A program made the position numbers and the translations under genes. A stretch of 22,352 nucleotides of DNA from positions 1 through 22,352 of the IMG/VR virus record IMGVR_UViG_3300040751_000658. One strand, written 5' to 3'. Position 1 is the stretch's first letter. Each line of letters starts with the position of its first letter. Under the pieces are notes generated by a model, which worked only from the letters and a program-made list of their open reading frames with translations, was not told where the DNA came from and ran no database searches. This stretch comes from a virus. Shown here piece after piece: positions 1 to 18,507 of the stretch.

Positions 1-1110
1 ATTATAAATCGCTCTATAGAAATGGTTATAAGTGGTTGTGTAGAAATACCTCTTATAGTAGAAGGTGGAAGTCCTGCTAAAAAAGTAAATAAACTCTTAA
101 ATATACGCCCTAATCCTTTTGAGGATAGGGTGCGTTTTTTTAGGCGTGCTATACTAGATTTTATGCTCGATGGCAATATATTCTTTTACTATGATGGGGA
201 TAATATTTTTCTATTACCAGCTAACGATGTAGAAGTAGTACCTGATAGAAACTTATTTGTATCGCATTATAATTATTTAGTAAGTAATCAACAATCACAA
301 AACTACTTTGGTTATAATAAAGAAACCAGAAAAGCAGAGGCTATACAGTTTGAGCCTCACGAAATAATCCATATAATGGCTGAAAACGAAGAATCTATAT
401 TTAGAGGTACTTCTAGAATAAAATCTATACTAAGGCTTATTGAGCTTTATTATTATATGATAGACTTTCAACGCCAGTTCTTTAAGAATAATGCTGTGCC
501 AGGCATAGTTCTTCAAACTGACAACATTCTTTCAAAACGTGTAAAAGATAGATTACTAGATTCTTGGAGAGCTAACTACTCTACCATATTTAGTGGTGCG
601 CGTAATCCTGCTATCTTAGACGGCGGTTTAAAAATAGATAACTTTTCTAATATAAACTTTAGTCAGTTAGATTTTGAAGGTTCTATAGAACGTATACAAC
701 AGGATATGGCTAAAGCTTTAGGTGTTCCTTATGTTCTTCTGAAGTCTGGTAATAATGCGAATATCGACGCCAATCAGAAACTATTTTATCTACATACAGT
801 ATTACCTATATTGTCTAGAATATGTTCAGCTTTTTCTCATTTCTTTAACTCTGTAAATATAAGACCAGACAGGTTAGCAGTGCCTGCGCTTCAGCCTGAT
901 AACAAAACACAAGCAACATACTATTCTACTCTCGTGAATACCGGAATTATCACTCCAAATGAAGCTCGTGAAGGATTAAGATTTGCAAAAATTGATGGAT
1001 ATGATACTATAAGAGTACCACAGAATATTACTGGCAGTGCTACAGACCCTTCTCAGGGTGGAAGACCTCCAGATTCTGATTCTACGGACGAGGATAAAAC
1101 AAATGAATAA
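1..1110 (+). CDS. Phage portal protein, HK97-like (5' partial)
   Basis: The portal is the dodecameric ring at the capsid vertex through which DNA enters and leaves. The frame is open from base 1 with no start signal there (the first ATG is at 22), so the N-terminus lies upstream of the window. Family hallmarks of HK97/SPP1-type portals visible in the translation are the 'FQRQFFKNNAVPG' helix region (about residue 150 from the first ATG), the 'NPAILDGGLKIDNFS' strand, and the 'QQDMAKALGVPYVLL' segment that follows it. The C-terminus is Gly/Pro/Asp-rich and probably disordered ('GGRPPDSDSTDEDKTNE'). The stop overlaps the next gene by 8 bases (ATGAATAA), which implies translational coupling to the protease. 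The terminase genes would be expected just upstream. The family call is firm; only the missing N-terminus is unknown. Confidence 0.93.
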   Translation: MINRSIEMVISGCVEIPLIVEGGSPAKKVNKLLNIRPNPFEDRVRFFRRAILDFMLDGNIFFYYDGDNIFLLPANDVEVVPDRNLFVSHYNYLVSNQQSQNYFGYNKETRKAEAIQFEPHEIIHIMAENEESIFRGTSRIKSILRLIELYYYMIDFQRQFFKNNAVPGIVLQTDNILSKRVKDRLLDSWRANYSTIFSGARNPAILDGGLKIDNFSNINFSQLDFEGSIERIQQDMAKALGVPYVLLKSGNNANIDANQKLFYLHTVLPILSRICSAFSHFFNSVNIRPDRLAVPALQPDNKTQATYYSTLVNTGIITPNEAREGLRFAKIDGYDTIRVPQNITGSATDPSQGGRPPDSDSTDEDKTNE

Positions 1111-3745
1111 AGATATATTCTATATAAATAGCTCTTTTGAGACTAAATCCTTTAGTAAAGGAAAGAAAAGTCTAAGAATCTCAGGATACGCTAATACAAT
1201 AACTAAAGATAGATCTGGAGATATTGTTACTGCGGAAGCTTGGGCAAAAGGCGTAGAGAATTTTAGAAAAAACCCTGTTATGCTTTATCAGCATAAGCAT
1301 GACCAGCCTATTGGTCGCTTTGATAAGATAACAGTAGATAAAAAAGGTATATATGTAGAGGGTAGCGTAAGCGAGGCTGCGGAAAAAACTCACGGCATAC
1401 ATACACTAATAAAAGACGGAGCACTAAAAAGTTTTAGTGTAGGTTTTAGAGTAAAAGACGCTAAATTCAACAGAACAGACGAATCTATGATAATAACAGA
1501 CGTAGAATTATTAGAGATTTCTGTTGTTAGCGTTCCTTGTAATCAAGATTCTCTGTTTAGTATTAAAAAGAGTTTTGATAGCAATGATGATTATAAGCAA
1601 TTTATATCATCTTTCGAAGAAGCTTCTGAAGAAGAAGTAAATAAAGCTCTTGGTATAAGAGCTGGATATACAACTATGTCTGATGGACACTACCATTCGT
1701 TAGAGATTGACGAAAACGGTAATGGTGTAACTACTTATGCTTCTCATATGCAGAATCATACACACAAAATATTAAATGGTAAACTTTTAGAGGCTGATGG
1801 GCATACTCACTCTATTAGTGTTATTGGTGTTCCTACAGGCAATGATGAGGAGAGTTCAATGGCTAATGAAAGACCATTATCACCTTCTGAACTAGAAGCA
1901 GTTGCTGATAAAGATGAGCAGGCTGAGACTATAAAAAGTGAAGAGGTGATCGCTGAGGAAGAAACCTTAGAGCAAAAACATGAAGAAACTATAGTAGAAA
2001 AAACAGAGGAACTAGTTCAGGATACTTCAGAGGTAGAAGAGCTAGGAGAAGAAGTAGAGGAGTTTGTATCAGTTGATCCTAACGAGCCTATTCCTTTCAT
2101 AAATCTACTATCTGCTAGTGTAGCAGTAGACACTGTTGTTACATATGAAAGTAAAACTTACAAAGTTTTAGAAGCTCCTTCTGCCCAAAACCCGTTCTTT
2201 AAATTTTTAGAAATTGACGCATCGGGTAATTCCTGTGATAATACTATTAATGTGAATGCAGAAGAAATTCTAAACATAAAAAATTCTACAACTGATATTA
2301 GTGAAGACGAGATGTCTACAGATAACCTGACGGAAAAGCTTCACAAAGATTCAACAAAGGAGAACGACACAATGGCTGAACAAGTCGTAGAAACAATCAA
2401 CCTAGAAACTGCTAAAGGGCAAGTTGAGGTTGAGGCTAAAAAAGAAGTAGCTCCGGCTACAGTCGCTGAGCCTAGAGTTGCAGATCTAGTTGAAAAAACT
2501 GGTGAAGCTCTTATTAAAGAGGCAGACGCAAAAGATAAGTATGGTGAGTACACACCTGTAGAAAGCGAAATGGTAGCTGAGCTAAAAGCACAAGTATCTA
2601 AGTACAAAGATGAGATTAAATCTCTACAAACTAGCAAAATGCAGTTTTCAGAGAACTCTCGCACTACTTCTCAGTTTAACGAGAAAGAAATGGCTAATGC
2701 CGTTCTTCTAGCTAAGATGCTAAATAAGCGCGACGTATTTGATACCAAGTATGGTTCTCGCATGAAGGCTGTTACAACTGTTGATCAGTTCCTATCTAAC
2801 TTCTCTTCTAATATTTATACTGAAATGGAACAGCAACTAGTTATTGCTCCTATGTTTAACCGCATGGCAGTAGATGCTAAGACTTTCCGTGTACCAGTAG
2901 CAGACGAAGATACTGATGGTGATGTTGCAATGTTCCGTTCTGGCACTTATGCAACTGGAATTGGTGATACTACTAATGTTCCAACTTCTAACCAAAATAC
3001 TATTAGCTCTGTTGAGTTTACTCCACACAAGTTCATGGCAACTACTCACCTAGCAAAAGACGAAGAAGAAGATACTGTTCTTCCTCTACTAGACTTCCTA
3101 CGTGCAGCAGCTACTCGCCGTCTGGCTCGTGCTATTGATAAGTCTATCCTAAGAGGTACTGGTGCTCTAACAGGCTTCACTGCTTCTCCTACTAATACTA
3201 TTACAGCAGGTACTGGTTATGCTTCTGTTATCGAAGGTATCACTAATCTAACTGGTGACGCTTCTCTAACAGTTTCTACTGGTTCCTCTACAGATAAAGC
3301 AGACCCAAGCGATATCGCAGCTGCACGTACCCAAATGGGTAAGTATGGTCTTCAGCTAGGTAATGATCTAGTGTTTGTTACTTCTATCGAAGGTTACAAC
3401 AACCTAGTAACTACTTCTGATTTCCAGACTGTTGATAAGTTCGGTCCTAACGCAACTTACCTAACAGGTTCTGTAGGTGCTGTATACGGTATTCCTATAG
3501 CTATTTCTGAGTTCCTAGATGGCGTAGGTTCTACTGGTAACCACCTAGGTGTTCTACTTTATAAGCCAGGCTTTATGATCGCAGAACGTCGCGGTATTGA
3601 GATTGAAAGCGAATACGAACCACGTCAGCAGGTAACTGCAATGTACATGAGCACTCGTTTTGACTTCAAGGCTCTAACTACTAACTCTAGTGCAGCACTA
3701 GACGCAACTAAGTATGCTTATGCATCTACTATCGTTGCAGGCTAA
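1103..3745 (+). CDS. Prohead protease / linker / major capsid protein fusion (880 aa)
   Basis: A single uninterrupted frame joins three parts. Residues 1-160 are an S78-type prohead protease (HK97 gp4 family): 'LYQHKHDQPIGRF' carries the likely catalytic His near 64-66, 'LKSFSVGF' the likely Ser near 110-112, and 'LLEISVVSVP' is the conserved closing strand. Residues 190-240 are His-rich with a repeated DGHxH motif. Residues 260-320 are strongly acidic, and 325-395 look like a small beta-rich domain. From residue 424 on it is an HK97-fold major capsid protein. I chose ATG 1103 (GAGG at 1090-1093, 9-base gap, coupled to the portal stop) over an open-frame ATG at 1037 that lies inside the portal gene. 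No stop or frameshift separates protease from capsid. In relatives these are usually two genes; protease-capsid fusions are known but less common. Free MCP probably comes from the internal start at 2372. Confidence 0.88.
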   Translation: MNKDIFYINSSFETKSFSKGKKSLRISGYANTITKDRSGDIVTAEAWAKGVENFRKNPVMLYQHKHDQPIGRFDKITVDKKGIYVEGSVSEAAEKTHGIHTLIKDGALKSFSVGFRVKDAKFNRTDESMIITDVELLEISVVSVPCNQDSLFSIKKSFDSNDDYKQFISSFEEASEEEVNKALGIRAGYTTMSDGHYHSLEIDENGNGVTTYASHMQNHTHKILNGKLLEADGHTHSISVIGVPTGNDEESSMANERPLSPSELEAVADKDEQAETIKSEEVIAEEETLEQKHEETIVEKTEELVQDTSEVEELGEEVEEFVSVDPNEPIPFINLLSASVAVDTVVTYESKTYKVLEAPSAQNPFFKFLEIDASGNSCDNTINVNAEEILNIKNSTTDISEDEMSTDNLTEKLHKDSTKENDTMAEQVVETINLETAKGQVEVEAKKEVAPATVAEPRVADLVEKTGEALIKEADAKDKYGEYTPVESEMVAELKAQVSKYKDEIKSLQTSKMQFSENSRTTSQFNEKEMANAVLLAKMLNKRDVFDTKYGSRMKAVTTVDQFLSNFSSNIYTEMEQQLVIAPMFNRMAVDAKTFRVPVADEDTDGDVAMFRSGTYATGIGDTTNVPTSNQNTISSVEFTPHKFMATTHLAKDEEEDTVLPLLDFLRAAATRRLARAIDKSILRGTGALTGFTASPTNTITAGTGYASVIEGITNLTGDASLTVSTGSSTDKADPSDIAAARTQMGKYGLQLGNDLVFVTSIEGYNNLVTTSDFQTVDKFGPNATYLTGSVGAVYGIPIAISEFLDGVGSTGNHLGVLLYKPGFMIAERRGIEIESEYEPRQQVTAMYMSTRFDFKALTTNSSAALDATKYAYASTIVAG
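1847..1861 (+). promoter_or_regulatory. Candidate internal ribosome binding site and ATG (1859)
   Basis: GAGGAG at 1847-1852 lies 6 bases before ATG 1859, in frame with the fusion protein. Starting here ('MANERPLSPSELEAV') would skip the protease and begin with the acidic linker, then run into the capsid protein. The arrangement recalls lambda C/Nu3, where the scaffold is an in-frame internal start in the protease gene. Here no stop ends the linker before the MCP. The purine-rich context is only suggestive. Confidence 0.4.
2356..2374 (+). promoter_or_regulatory. Strong internal ribosome binding site for free major capsid protein
   Basis: AAAGGAG at 2356-2362 is a near-perfect Shine-Dalgarno sequence 9 bases before ATG 2372, and that ATG is in frame with the upstream protease. 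It is among the best ribosome binding sites in the window. It sits exactly where capsid homology begins and where codon usage becomes biased, so it is probably functional. Confidence 0.82.
2372..3745 (+). CDS. Major capsid protein, HK97 fold, nested start (457 aa)
   Basis: This is the free capsid protein expected from the internal ATG, the main subunit of the head shell. Residues 1-95 are charged and helical ('ELKAQVSKYKDEIKSLQ' near 70-86), like the HK97 delta (scaffold) domain that the protease removes. The mature shell domain follows, with 'APMFNRMAVDAKTFRVPV' (N-arm/E-loop region), the Thr/Ala-rich A-domain and the closing 'GIEIESEYEPRQQVTAMYMSTRFD' type ending. The length is typical for a capsid protein with a delta domain. 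By hand count only 1 of 21 Ile codons is ATA here, against 16 of 30 in the preceding protease/linker part, consistent with very high expression. The gene ends in tandem stops TAA-TAG and is followed by a GC-rich hairpin. The exact cleavage site is not visible. Confidence 0.9.
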   Translation: MAEQVVETINLETAKGQVEVEAKKEVAPATVAEPRVADLVEKTGEALIKEADAKDKYGEYTPVESEMVAELKAQVSKYKDEIKSLQTSKMQFSENSRTTSQFNEKEMANAVLLAKMLNKRDVFDTKYGSRMKAVTTVDQFLSNFSSNIYTEMEQQLVIAPMFNRMAVDAKTFRVPVADEDTDGDVAMFRSGTYATGIGDTTNVPTSNQNTISSVEFTPHKFMATTHLAKDEEEDTVLPLLDFLRAAATRRLARAIDKSILRGTGALTGFTASPTNTITAGTGYASVIEGITNLTGDASLTVSTGSSTDKADPSDIAAARTQMGKYGLQLGNDLVFVTSIEGYNNLVTTSDFQTVDKFGPNATYLTGSVGAVYGIPIAISEFLDGVGSTGNHLGVLLYKPGFMIAERRGIEIESEYEPRQQVTAMYMSTRFDFKALTTNSSAALDATKYAYASTIVAG

Positions 3746-3821: not shown

Positions 3822-5144
3822 ATGACAGATAAATTTGAAGAAAACCTAGGTAGAAATACTTATATAACATTACCACAAATAAAAGATTATTTAAGTATTA
3901 GCAGCAATACTCAAGACGCTAGATTGTCTAATCTAGTGTATTATGCTACAGGCGTTATAGAGCATTACATAGGTCAAGAAATATTAGCTAATGACTATGT
4001 AGAGATATATGACGGAGGTAAGTCTTCTGTATTTTCTGCTAGACTACCTTTAAATAATGTTTATCAGGTGAGCGAGTTTAACGGTGTAGATTTTGATATT
4101 CTTGATGACCCTACAACAATAGGGGCTCCTGTAATAACAGATACTGACTCTGTGATATTTAATTTTGCAGGAGATGCTAGATGCACTACTAAAGTAACTA
4201 AGTTTGGCAAATCATGTTTAACTCTTGATAACGATGATTTTATATATTCGGGCACTGTTCCTGAGTCTATGATATTTGAAGATGGTGACTTTACTATAGA
4301 AGCTTTTGTCCGCGTTACTGAAGCAACGCTTCAGGATAATGTAGTATTTTCAGTAAGTACTGATGATTCTAATTATATGAAGCTATCTTTAGCAAATCAG
4401 TATGGATTATCCTTTGAAGCTAATAATTCAGGAAGCTCTACTGTAGTGCGAGGTGATAATGTTAGTATAGAAACTCAGCAGTTTGTATCAAGACAGTGGG
4501 CACATATAGCCGCCGTTAGAGACATAAGCGATGATACTTTAAAACTTTTTTATAACGGTAATCTAATAGCAAATAGCTCTTATACTATTAATAATCATAA
4601 TTTTACTTCTAACGTACTAATCGGAGAAACTTTTAAAGGTCAATTAGATGAAATAAGAGTATCTTCAATGCCTAGATATACACAAAACTTCTCTGTGCCA
4701 GAGCATAGATTTAGGCCAGATAACGACACATCTATGCTAGTGCATTTTGATGAAAAACACAATGCTACTATTGCTAAAGATGTTCATGCGCAACCTAGTG
4801 AGTATAGTTATTCTATAGATAGTGGAGAAATAACAAAGAATATAGGAACCAAAGCTAGCTATATTAGTGTTAATAAGTCTTATCCTTCTATCTCTTTGTT
4901 TGGTTCTCCTACTTTTAATCCATACCCTAACGGAGTAAAGATAGAGTATAACGCAGGCTACTCTGCAGATAGCATACCTTACGATTTGCAATTAGCTACT
5001 CTCGACTTTATAAAACTGCTATACAAACAAGATCAAGAGAAGAAAGGTTTTAGTTTTGAGGGCGAAAAAGGAGATTCTTTTCCTCTTGCAGGCAACTTTC
5101 CTCCACACGTTCGCCGTATTTTAGACTTATATAGAATTATTTAA
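3822..5144 (+). CDS. Head-tail connector (HK97 gp6-like) with inserted LamG-like domain (440 aa)
   Basis: Residues 12-88 match the first half of the gp6-like adaptor family ('LSNLVYYATGVIEHYIGQ', then 'RLPLNNVYQVSE'). Residues 365-440 match the second half ('VKIEYNAGYSADSIPYDLQ', 'ATLDFIKLLYKQ', 'PPHVRRILDLYRII'). Between them, about 90-350, sits a concanavalin/LamG-type beta sandwich with the usual phage signature: 'TKFGKSCLTLDNDDF', 'GDFTIEAFVRV', 'WAHIAAVRD', 'LKLFYNGNLIA', 'GQLDEIRVSSMPRYTQNF' and 'SMLVHFDEK'. The adaptor binds the portal and seals the neck; ordinary members are about 100-200 residues, so the insert explains the size. The insert probably projects from the neck and may bind glycans. 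The start follows AAGG/TAGG at 3809-3816. The adaptor call rests mainly on its two ends and its position. Confidence 0.8.
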   Translation: MTDKFEENLGRNTYITLPQIKDYLSISSNTQDARLSNLVYYATGVIEHYIGQEILANDYVEIYDGGKSSVFSARLPLNNVYQVSEFNGVDFDILDDPTTIGAPVITDTDSVIFNFAGDARCTTKVTKFGKSCLTLDNDDFIYSGTVPESMIFEDGDFTIEAFVRVTEATLQDNVVFSVSTDDSNYMKLSLANQYGLSFEANNSGSSTVVRGDNVSIETQQFVSRQWAHIAAVRDISDDTLKLFYNGNLIANSSYTINNHNFTSNVLIGETFKGQLDEIRVSSMPRYTQNFSVPEHRFRPDNDTSMLVHFDEKHNATIAKDVHAQPSEYSYSIDSGEITKNIGTKASYISVNKSYPSISLFGSPTFNPYPNGVKIEYNAGYSADSIPYDLQLATLDFIKLLYKQDQEKKGFSFEGEKGDSFPLAGNFPPHVRRILDLYRII

Positions 5145-16111: not shown

Positions 16112-17686
16112 ATGACAGCTAGAACATACGATATAATACTTACTGTAGACGATGCTTCCCCTTTTAGAGCTTCTAACGTAGTTACTGGTAATACCTCTGG
16201 AACTAGTGGAGTTATTGCAGGTATCGACTATGATAATAACTTACTCAAAGTTCGTTTAGCGAATACTATACAAGAATTTAGGGATAGCGAGGTAATACAC
16301 TCTAATGCTGCTGTGTTTACTGGTAGTACTAGTGGACAGCTAAATAGTGGCGAGTTACCTTTCTACTCTAATGTAAAAATAGGAGATATAACTACTGCTA
16401 TAGCTAGCATAACGGCTACAGCTCCTAGTCATTTTATAGCCGAGAAAAACGCATTTACTCAAAATCCTATTGTACGTCTTTATAGCATATACTATCCAGG
16501 AGAGTGGTTTCCTACTAATGAGTATGGAAATCCTACAAATCAAGGAGAAGGCCGCGCTTGGCCTAACGAATTTCCAATTCGATTTGCAGAATTTGTCGGA
16601 GATACTGCTGAAGATCTTAGTTATAATGTAGTTCACGCAGGAGAGAGTTATACTCCTTTTCCTGTTAACCTAAGCGGTATGGATCAAGGCGCAGACGGTA
16701 AAATAAACGAACTATCACTTACAATATTTAACGTGGACAATATAATCTCTAGACTTGTAGAAGACCCTTATTTGTTAGGTAATAATACTTCAAACTCTGT
16801 TATTGCTAGTGTTAACGGTGAGCTAGTGCACGGAATTGATCCTAGAACTGTGGATGCTACTCCTTCTGCTTTAGGTAGTGAAGGTGATTTAGCTTTTGAT
16901 CTTCTAACTCGTGCACGAGCTAATGGCTTAGCTTATGATGCTAGTGTGGAGGCTTATTATGGCAGAGCAAATGCTAGTTTTAATAAATTGCAGACTGAGC
17001 TAGTAAACGGTGTGTGGCAGAGACAAAAAGAAGATACTCGTGATCTTCAAGGCGGTGTAGTAACAATTAAGACTACTTTTGCTAACTTCTTAGACTTTTG
17101 GCCTGAATATAGCTTAGTTACTGATGTTTCTTCTAATGTTCTTGAAGTAAGAAATGCTATTGCATATAGAATAGGAGATAACGTAGTGTCTTCTAGAGGC
17201 GGAGTAGAAGCTACTGTACAGCGAATAGAAGATAACTATAAGCTGCATTTATCTAATGCCTTAGATGCTAGCACAGCTGTAGGAGATGCTGTTTATATTG
17301 TAAACGTAGATAAAGATTCTGAAAGCTATTTAGAAGACACTTTTAAAATAGACCAGCTAGAGAGCCTAAGTGAGTATGTAGCTACTTTTGGGTTAGTTTC
17401 TTGGTTGCAGTATTTTAAGATTGTAGTCCCTAAGAGAAAGTATTATAAAAATACTTGCCAATGGAAATACAAAGGTGAAGAGTGCCAATATCCAGGGCCT
17501 GGACGTTTACCTATACCAGGAACTAATAAAGTATCTAACGCTAATCCTATAGCTGCAAATAATGAAGCTATGCTTAGTGAAACAGATGATGTTTGTGGTA
17601 AATCTTTTGCAGCCTGTAGAGCACGCAATAACGAAGTGCACTTCGGAGGTTTTCCGGGGACCGGCAGAACAATTCCTAGAGCATAA
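16112..17686 (+). CDS. Minor tail protein L-like, enlarged, with four-Cys cluster (524 aa)
   Basis: The start abuts the previous stop; the ribosome binding site is weak (AAGAG, 12-base gap). Core L-like segments are about 165-235 ('AGESYTPFPVNLSGMDQGA', 'ELSLTIFNVDN') and 405-524. The C-terminus holds Cys449, Cys458, Cys495 and Cys502 in 'CQWKYKGEEC' and 'CGKSFAACRARNN', then 'FGGFPGTGR', which is the lambda gpL pattern; in lambda those cysteines bind an iron-sulfur cluster. Lambda gpL is about 230 residues, so this protein carries extra material: about 15-80 ('SGTSGVIAGIDYDNNLLKVR'), a second similar-looking stretch about 335-400 ('YRIGDNVVSSRGGVEATVQ'), and a helical region 240-300. The two extra stretches look like small SH3-like barrels (inference). 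It sits in the tail tip under the J-type protein. Confidence 0.85.
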   Translation: MTARTYDIILTVDDASPFRASNVVTGNTSGTSGVIAGIDYDNNLLKVRLANTIQEFRDSEVIHSNAAVFTGSTSGQLNSGELPFYSNVKIGDITTAIASITATAPSHFIAEKNAFTQNPIVRLYSIYYPGEWFPTNEYGNPTNQGEGRAWPNEFPIRFAEFVGDTAEDLSYNVVHAGESYTPFPVNLSGMDQGADGKINELSLTIFNVDNIISRLVEDPYLLGNNTSNSVIASVNGELVHGIDPRTVDATPSALGSEGDLAFDLLTRARANGLAYDASVEAYYGRANASFNKLQTELVNGVWQRQKEDTRDLQGGVVTIKTTFANFLDFWPEYSLVTDVSSNVLEVRNAIAYRIGDNVVSSRGGVEATVQRIEDNYKLHLSNALDASTAVGDAVYIVNVDKDSESYLEDTFKIDQLESLSEYVATFGLVSWLQYFKIVVPKRKYYKNTCQWKYKGEECQYPGPGRLPIPGTNKVSNANPIAANNEAMLSETDDVCGKSFAACRARNNEVHFGGFPGTGRTIPRA

Positions 17687-17705
17687 TGTAAAAAGAGTAA
17701 CAGTT

Positions 17706-18095
17706 TTGAACTTAGATAATTACTTATTTATCCCACATAACTATGATAGCATAAATTGTGTAAGCCTAATCCAGCTTTACTACAAAAACGAGTTAAACAT
17801 AGATTTAATTATACCAGAGTATAAGAAAAGCAGGCGATGGTCTGCTTTTTTTAATACTGCATCAGCAGATGCGTGGGCAATTGATAATGCAATAAAAGTG
17901 CAGTTGACAGACGCTAAAAATTATGATTTAATGATATTTAAGTCAGGAAATAAATTGACCCATTTTGCTATGTATGTGGAAAGTAATAGGATGCTTCATA
18001 TTGAAGAGCAAAGCGTGTCAAAAGTAGAGCTACTATCTGATTATTGGATTAAACAACTGTATGGGGTTTATAGGCATGAAGCCTTGGTATTATAA
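17706..18095 (+). CDS. NlpC/P60-type tail-tip peptidase, first copy (129 aa)
   Basis: Corresponds to the C-terminal half of lambda gpK. Motifs: 'YDSINCVSLIQLYY' with the likely nucleophile Cys18, and 'KLTHFAMYV' with the likely catalytic His86, followed by 'NRMLHIEEQ' (His98). Members cut peptidoglycan peptides or act in tip assembly. The frame is open from 17562, but that ATG lies inside the L-like gene and encodes unrelated residues; the TTG at 17706 ('MNLDNYLFIPHNYDS') matches the usual N-terminal start of the family and follows AAGAG after about 9 bases, so I chose it. It lies 19 bases after the L-like stop and overlaps the next gene by 20 bases. Confidence 0.76.
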   Translation: MNLDNYLFIPHNYDSINCVSLIQLYYKNELNIDLIIPEYKKSRRWSAFFNTASADAWAIDNAIKVQLTDAKNYDLMIFKSGNKLTHFAMYVESNRMLHIEEQSVSKVELLSDYWIKQLYGVYRHEALVL

Positions 18096-18507
18096 ATATG
18101 TAGGATTACCCTACAAACATTTAGGCAGCGATCCGGAGTCTGGTATAGATTGCGGTAACTTAATGAAACTAATCTATAAAGAAGAGCGAGGTATAGATAT
18201 ACCTTTTTATACTTCTGATTTTTGCAACATAGTTGACGAAGATTGGTATAATAAGACTACTGATCAGCTTTTTGAAACAGGTATTAAGATAGAGCGAGAT
18301 GATTTTAAGTGGCAAAAAGTTAGTACACCGCGTGTGTATGATCTAGTACTTATGAGTATTGGAGGCACTAATGTCACTAATCATTGTGCTGTATACGTAG
18401 ATAAAGGTAAAATATTACATACTATGTGTGGAAAAGATAGTTGGGTAGCTCCTTATGGAAATTATTATAAACAGTATACTACAGGAATATACAGATGGGC
18501 ACTATAG
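18076..18507 (+). CDS. NlpC/P60-type tail-tip peptidase, second copy (143 aa)
   Basis: A second, divergent member directly after the first. Motifs: 'YVGLPYKHLGSDPESGIDC' with likely nucleophile Cys26, 'NHCAVYV' with likely catalytic His103, then 'GKILHTM' (His115) and 'PYGNYYKQYTTGIYRW'. The 'GLPYKHLG....GIDCGNL' opening is the standard NlpC/P60 form and closer to bacterial members than the first copy. I took ATG 18076 over ATG 18061, since the extra five residues fall outside the family start. It overlaps both neighbours by 13-20 bases. Both copies keep Cys and His, so neither looks inactivated; different substrates or one structural copy are possible. Confidence 0.8.
   Translation: MKPWYYKYVGLPYKHLGSDPESGIDCGNLMKLIYKEERGIDIPFYTSDFCNIVDEDWYNKTTDQLFETGIKIERDDFKWQKVSTPRVYDLVLMSIGGTNVTNHCAVYVDKGKILHTMCGKDSWVAPYGNYYKQYTTGIYRWAL

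Follow-up and report, generated by a model that had tools for sequence, protein, structure and literature searches.

We found that a single head gene in the window (the whole stretch of 22,352 nucleotides of viral DNA analyzed here) probably supplies two kinds of capsid precursor, few that bear a protease and many plain ones, by means of an internal promoter and an internal Shine-Dalgarno (SD) sequence. From the conservation of these signals across relatives, we estimate the probability of this reading at about 0.83. The full-length gene (1103..3745; all features of this gene given below lie on the + strand) is one uninterrupted frame of 880 codons, which begins at ATG 1103 and ends with the stop at 3743-3745, and its product is ordered as S78 protease, His-rich domain, acidic linker, small beta domain, delta domain and HK97-fold capsid. 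The prohead protease domain (1139..1570, residues 13-156) matches Pfam Peptidase_S78 with an E value of 2e-21 and the protease part passes the S78 cut-offs of both PF04586 (77 bits, cut-off 21) and TIGR01543 (80 bits, cut-off 59), while Phage_capsid of Pfam is matched at residues 566-861 (E 7e-15) and NCBIfam TIGR01554 is also matched by the capsid part. The original prediction that no stop separates an S78 protease from an HK97-fold capsid protein is thus borne out by the open frame and by the two Pfam domains, and the gene is a protease-capsid fusion in the general sense that a protease (S78, or else ClpP/S49) and an HK97-fold capsid share one open frame. It was not assigned to the family NF045541 (prohead protease/major capsid fusion), with which it scores 38.9 bits against a curated cut-off of 525, and in the N-terminal residues 51-201 only.

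The AlphaFold model of the whole fusion has a mean pLDDT of 54, and only its protease and a portion of its capsid domain are usable. In this model, residues 1-146 resemble the protease fold of T4 gp21 (5jbl, Z 12.5, rmsd 2.8, 142 aligned residues) and show a weaker likeness to herpesvirus proteases (Z ~7), and modelled residues 705-880 resemble T5-like capsid proteins (8ho3, Z 12.5, rmsd 3.2, 119 aligned residues). No fold is claimed from the model for the His-rich and linker domains. The His-rich domain (1661..1837, residues ~187-245), which carries a GHYH...HTH signature conserved in most members of A2, is possibly a metal-binding accessory domain; tblastn gave weak matches to proteins annotated as XkdF/protease in Vibrio phages of 80 kb. 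As for the adjacent gene, the product of the frame that follows the capsid (3822-5144) combines a head-tail adaptor (PHROG 442, residues 363-439) with a central region (~105-338), in which matches to families of virion structural and baseplate-wedge proteins are found and which possibly represents a laminin-G-like insert. Further downstream in the window, a 177-aa frame (17562-18095) shares ~125 bases, read in a different frame, with the end of the 524-aa frame that precedes it. Another short protein, encoded at 18061-18507, comes next and looks similar; the two are possibly tandem peptidase-like tail genes.

The phage family is uncultured and known from metagenomes only. Our scan of IMG/VR returned 80 loci of 66-76% identity, nearly all spanning the full 880 residues, and lineages at a greater distance were obtained from two additional scans. 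The original prediction had proposed to look in relatives for a stop between the two parts; none occurs in the 80 close relatives (metagenomic contigs), whose frame is open across the junction in every case, nor in the distant lineages that span the junction, all of which are fused and share the same capsid-start site. No relative was found among the genome contigs, which were searched for a link to a host or prophage. Of the cultured phages, the T5-like Demerecviridae come closest, with identities of 36-37% for the portal, ~28% for the capsid and 43-54% for the protease. These phages carry two separate genes at this place, as would be expected if the fusion were an artefact of sequencing or assembly, or the outcome of a recent stop-codon loss between two genes. 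Such an origin is contradicted by the 80 contigs which retain the open frame at this level of divergence and by the ~260 extra residues that separate the protease and capsid domains in the fused relatives, and we consider it extremely improbable.

The second claim of the original prediction, namely that a strong SD (2356-2362) and an ATG (2372) sit exactly at the capsid start, was confirmed. The site (2356..2374) consists of AAAGGAG, placed nine bases before ATG 2372-2374, and is conserved in 54/54 members; AAGGAG or AGGAGG plus ATG is found at the capsid start in all 80 close relatives. We calculated the anti-SD energy, i.e., that of hybridization to the 16S 3' end, for each in-frame ATG of the 54 members. 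An energy of -8 kcal/mol or better is attained by the capsid ATG in each of the 54 members, compared to 1 of the 898 in-frame ATGs that lie neither at the capsid start nor in the linker zone, which argues that the SD at the capsid start is not there by chance. In the window itself, the energies are -9.4 for ATG 1859 (discussed below), -8.7 for ATG 2372 and -6.1 for the next-best in-frame ATG. The internal SD and ATG, which lie in frame with the fusion, are conserved beyond the constraint on the protein: the SD survives a change of the residues encoded over it from TKEN to DEEE (L077, L079) as well as the loss of one codon in L048. The predicted nested product is a capsid precursor of 457 aa (2372..3745), composed of a delta (scaffold-like) domain (2372..2767), which is helical in the model and predicted to be removed at maturation, and of a predicted mature capsid subunit of 325 aa (2768..3742).

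The region upstream of this start is constrained at the nucleotide level. For 43 non-redundant members aligned by codon, we set the observed synonymous identity against the expected one in 21 disjoint pairs. The synonymous excess extends from 2183 to ~2395 (z 3.3-7.1 per 10 codons) and fades over the first 40 capsid codons, with a weaker stretch to ~2512; in the remaining blocks of the gene, it is near zero or negative almost everywhere. Within the constrained stretch lie, in this order, a promoter-like sequence, an inverted repeat, the ribosome-binding site and the start codon. The first of these is a predicted sigma-70-like internal promoter (2214..2242), AAATTTTTAGA..TTGACG-17-GATAAT, with TTGACG at 2214-2219, a spacer of 17 nt and a TG-extended GATAAT at 2237-2242, preceded by an A/T-rich sequence. 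We searched the records of 15 relatives, up to 173 kb in size, with the strict motif TTGAC-N15-TG-NN-ATAAT and found it once per genome in 11 of them; in 10 of these 11, it is located in the protease-capsid gene (the copy of G010 lies at an unrelated place), and the reversed motif used as a control does not occur in the 15 records. In turn, the promoter scanner alone revealed no excess (25 found, 25 expected), so that the case for a promoter rests on conservation. In the related lineages of L112 and L113 (both with a frame of ~1036 aa) and of L117, the stretch from the promoter-like site to the capsid start is longer, the site being located 405-423 nt upstream of the latter; the linker of these loci is apparently evolving by insertion, with both signals, the promoter-like site and the capsid start, retained.

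One could argue that the two products are made by translation alone and that the promoter-like motif owes its conservation to a role in the protein or in the RNA. The segment which bears it also encodes the conserved beta domain, and in L121, L136 and L141, which form one lineage, the internal SD is present but the motif is not. However, the same three loci retain the homologous protein segment with no promoter-like sequence found in it, which indicates that the protein does not dictate the DNA motif. Moreover, the hexamers themselves are under synonymous constraint (z 4.5-6.9), the -35/-10 spacing is exactly 17 nt in 43/43 members, and the -10 element outlasts changes of the neighboring residues in L080, L092, L112 and L117. 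In view of these observations, we regard an origin of both products by translation alone as unlikely and favor the internal promoter.

The inverted repeat of the predicted capsid mRNA leader, AGTGAAG ... CTTCAC (2296..2346), is present in 42 of the 43 members with a loop of varying length, forms part of the predicted minimum-energy fold of the leader and is a possible stem-loop. A structured RNA leader as such was not adopted and is kept as a lead, as the leader folds no better than its shuffles (z -0.73) and the halves of the repeat are also conserved as protein; a search of Rfam for a structured leader gave no match.

Codon usage also shifts within the gene (LLR 73.6 versus a maximum of 38 among 100 synonymous shuffles). 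With the major tail protein of the window as a high-expression reference (codon score of +0.135), the mature capsid part scores +0.20, the delta domain 0.00 and the protease -0.11, the latter resembling ordinary genes such as the portal and tape measure. This difference fits more translation of the capsid part. The codon change point was rejected as a proof of the exact start: in the window, it falls in the delta domain, up to ~110 codons downstream of ATG 2372, where the boundary is not sharp, and in the relatives it scatters. The proposal of few fusions and many free capsid subunits, put forward in the original prediction, is supported by the absence of junction stops, by the conservation of the site at the nucleotide level and by capsid codon usage; the site is conserved beyond the need of the protein, and high-expression codon usage is seen in the capsid part and not in the protease part. 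As a description of two products it is well supported by sequence evolution, yet it was incomplete, for it missed the promoter at 2214-2242 and a probable further start at 1859.

This second internal start (1847..1861) is composed of GAGGAG (1847-1852), a spacer of 6 nt and ATG 1859, and would yield a linker-capsid protein of 628 aa. It is positioned between the protease part and the acidic linker, just past the His-rich domain, and has the best anti-SD energy of all in-frame ATGs of the window's gene. The site might be a mere by-product of the acidic, GAG-rich codons of the linker and remain unused, in which case the gene would have two products only. Consistent with this are its absence or weakness in 15 of the 54 relatives, the modest synonymous constraint found there (z 3.0) and the position of the window's site away from that common to most relatives. 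On the other hand, the remaining 39 relatives possess a linker-zone ATG at -8 kcal/mol or better, a frequency far above the background seen elsewhere in the frame, and the site is often rebuilt from a different sequence in each lineage (AAGGAGGTTATCATCATG in L121, AAAGGAGATCGTTCTTATG in L136), which argues for selection acting on it. We consider the by-product explanation a serious one, though somewhat the less probable of the two, and hold the existence of the third, 628-aa product to be slightly favored, a caution that reflects the 15 members with a weak or missing site and the unusual position of the window's copy.

Comparison with phage T5 provides a candidate maturation site. The mature chain of T5 pb8 starts at residue 160 (299 of 458 residues). 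In the alignment, Lys159-Ala160 of pb8 falls on Lys132-Ala133 of the nested product, numbered K555|A556 in the fusion, and neither residue varies among the 46 members aligned. Cleavage at K555|A556 would give the same 325-residue mature subunit from any of the starts. The capsid part is of the T5 (pb8) type with regard to its similarity to 8zvi (E 9e-29), the aligned K|A site and the fold likeness to 8ho3, but the protease, separately encoded in the T5 type, is here part of the fused gene. Accordingly, T5-like phages (Demerecviridae) share with the fused family a related protease, portal and capsid, and by alignment the same cleavage site, whereas their protease and capsid are two genes separated by a stop and devoid of the linker. 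From start codon to stop, it is the nested product, aligned from M1, and not the fusion that their separate major capsid gene matches.

Protease-capsid fusions were already known, and it turns out that the one of Lactococcus phage c2 appears to share the same, previously unremarked internal start. In the c2 l5 gene (L182; NC_001706, 9418-10860), AAAGGAG and an ATG, AAAGGAGAACAAGAACAAATG, are found at codon 131, which is the best in-frame ATG and coincides with the protease/delta boundary; the predicted capsid precursor would have 350 aa. Equivalents of this start are present in bIL67, vL_14A, 74001 and LG75P1 (56% identity to c2), and in c2, bIL67 and LG75P1, which represent independent fusions, the best in-frame ribosome-binding site is located at the same protease/delta boundary as in the window. 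Like the window gene, l5 of c2 and of other ceduoviruses fuses an S78-type protease in frame to an HK97-fold capsid, but it lacks the His-rich domain and acidic linker and shows no close sequence relation to the window beyond the shared families. Salmonella phage Gifsy-2, a prophage with virulence genes, possesses a tripartite capsid gene according to the title of Effantin 2010 (listed in the references of PMC8538268). In this gene, the protease, a central domain and the capsid are reportedly encoded together, but, unlike in the window, the protease is said to be of the ClpP type. Fused protease-capsid genes have also been described in Arthrobacter phages of clusters AM, AU and AN and in Rhodococcus phage RRH1 (PMC5513430), and a ClpP-type protease-capsid fusion, presented with reference to Lactococcus c2, in Paracoccus prophages (PMC6536676). 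Among fusions of the Arthrobacter/Rhodococcus type, which differ from the window by their high-GC hosts and weaker SDs, we found the best in-frame SD at the protease/delta boundary in Rahul, McGonagall and KylieMac and weaker sites there in GE1, RRH1 and BlueFeather; the same in-frame scan detected no such SD site at this boundary in EricDab, Idaho and SallySpecial. Genes of this fused kind may therefore often contain an internal capsid start. In the open-access literature, to which our search was confined, no nested capsid start in a protease-capsid fusion was found described.

Existing annotations suggest another arrangement, i.e., a polyprotein in which every subunit is born as the 880-aa fusion and then processed, the internal SD and promoter being unused. 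The GenBank record of c2 lists one long l5 gene with the mature capsid from codon 206, and in records such as those of Gordonia phage Rahul and Arthrobacter phage KylieMac one product is annotated for the entire fusion. Such a scheme gives no reason for the conservation of the SD, ATG and promoter at the nucleotide level, the c2 gene itself carries the same internal start, and ~47 kDa of extra protein per subunit would presumably crowd the prohead. We thus find exclusive synthesis as a polyprotein quite improbable, and retain the production of separate protease-bearing and plain precursors as the preferred reading.

In the design that we propose, translation of the long polycistronic head transcript from ATG 1103 would produce the complete fusion; its N-terminal protease, hung from the delta domain, would end up inside the prohead. 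The sigma-70-like promoter, written in the codons of the linker, would provide extra capsid mRNA from ~2249, and on either transcript the ribosome-binding site at 2356-2362 would direct synthesis of the 457-aa precursor from ATG 2372. A third start, present in most relatives and here probably ATG 1859, may add a protease-free linker-capsid precursor. Once the prohead has assembled, all precursors would be cut by the protease at K555|A556 to yield identical mature subunits. From the signals described above, we infer the use of the promoter and starts, the ratio of products, protease packaging and cleavage. In its widest form, the proposal is that of a triple-nested head gene, with products of 880, 628 and 457 aa from three domain-boundary starts, a capsid promoter of its own, and internal starts as a general rule that includes c2; for this wider version we see the odds as even.

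Nested genes of this kind have well-known counterparts. In lambda C/Nu3 and herpesvirus UL26/UL26.5, a protease is fused in frame to the scaffold, and the abundant scaffold arises from a nested start with the same 3' end, which in herpesviruses is served by an internal promoter. In the window gene, the conserved promoter-like sequence may play a comparable part in driving the shorter mRNA. In both known systems, the shorter product is a scaffold, and the capsid protein has a gene of its own, whereas in the window the predicted nested product is the capsid protein. The trick of nesting protease and scaffold would thereby be extended to the capsid protein itself. Protease-capsid fusions pose a puzzle of stoichiometry, as a head contains hundreds of capsid subunits and would scarcely offer space for an equal number of proteases, and a conserved internal start together with a promoter would be a simple answer to it. 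The capsid annotation of many phages, in which one long product is listed, may need correcting. If the triple-nested reading is true, internal capsid starts would be a general and overlooked rule of phage protease-capsid fusions, c2 included.
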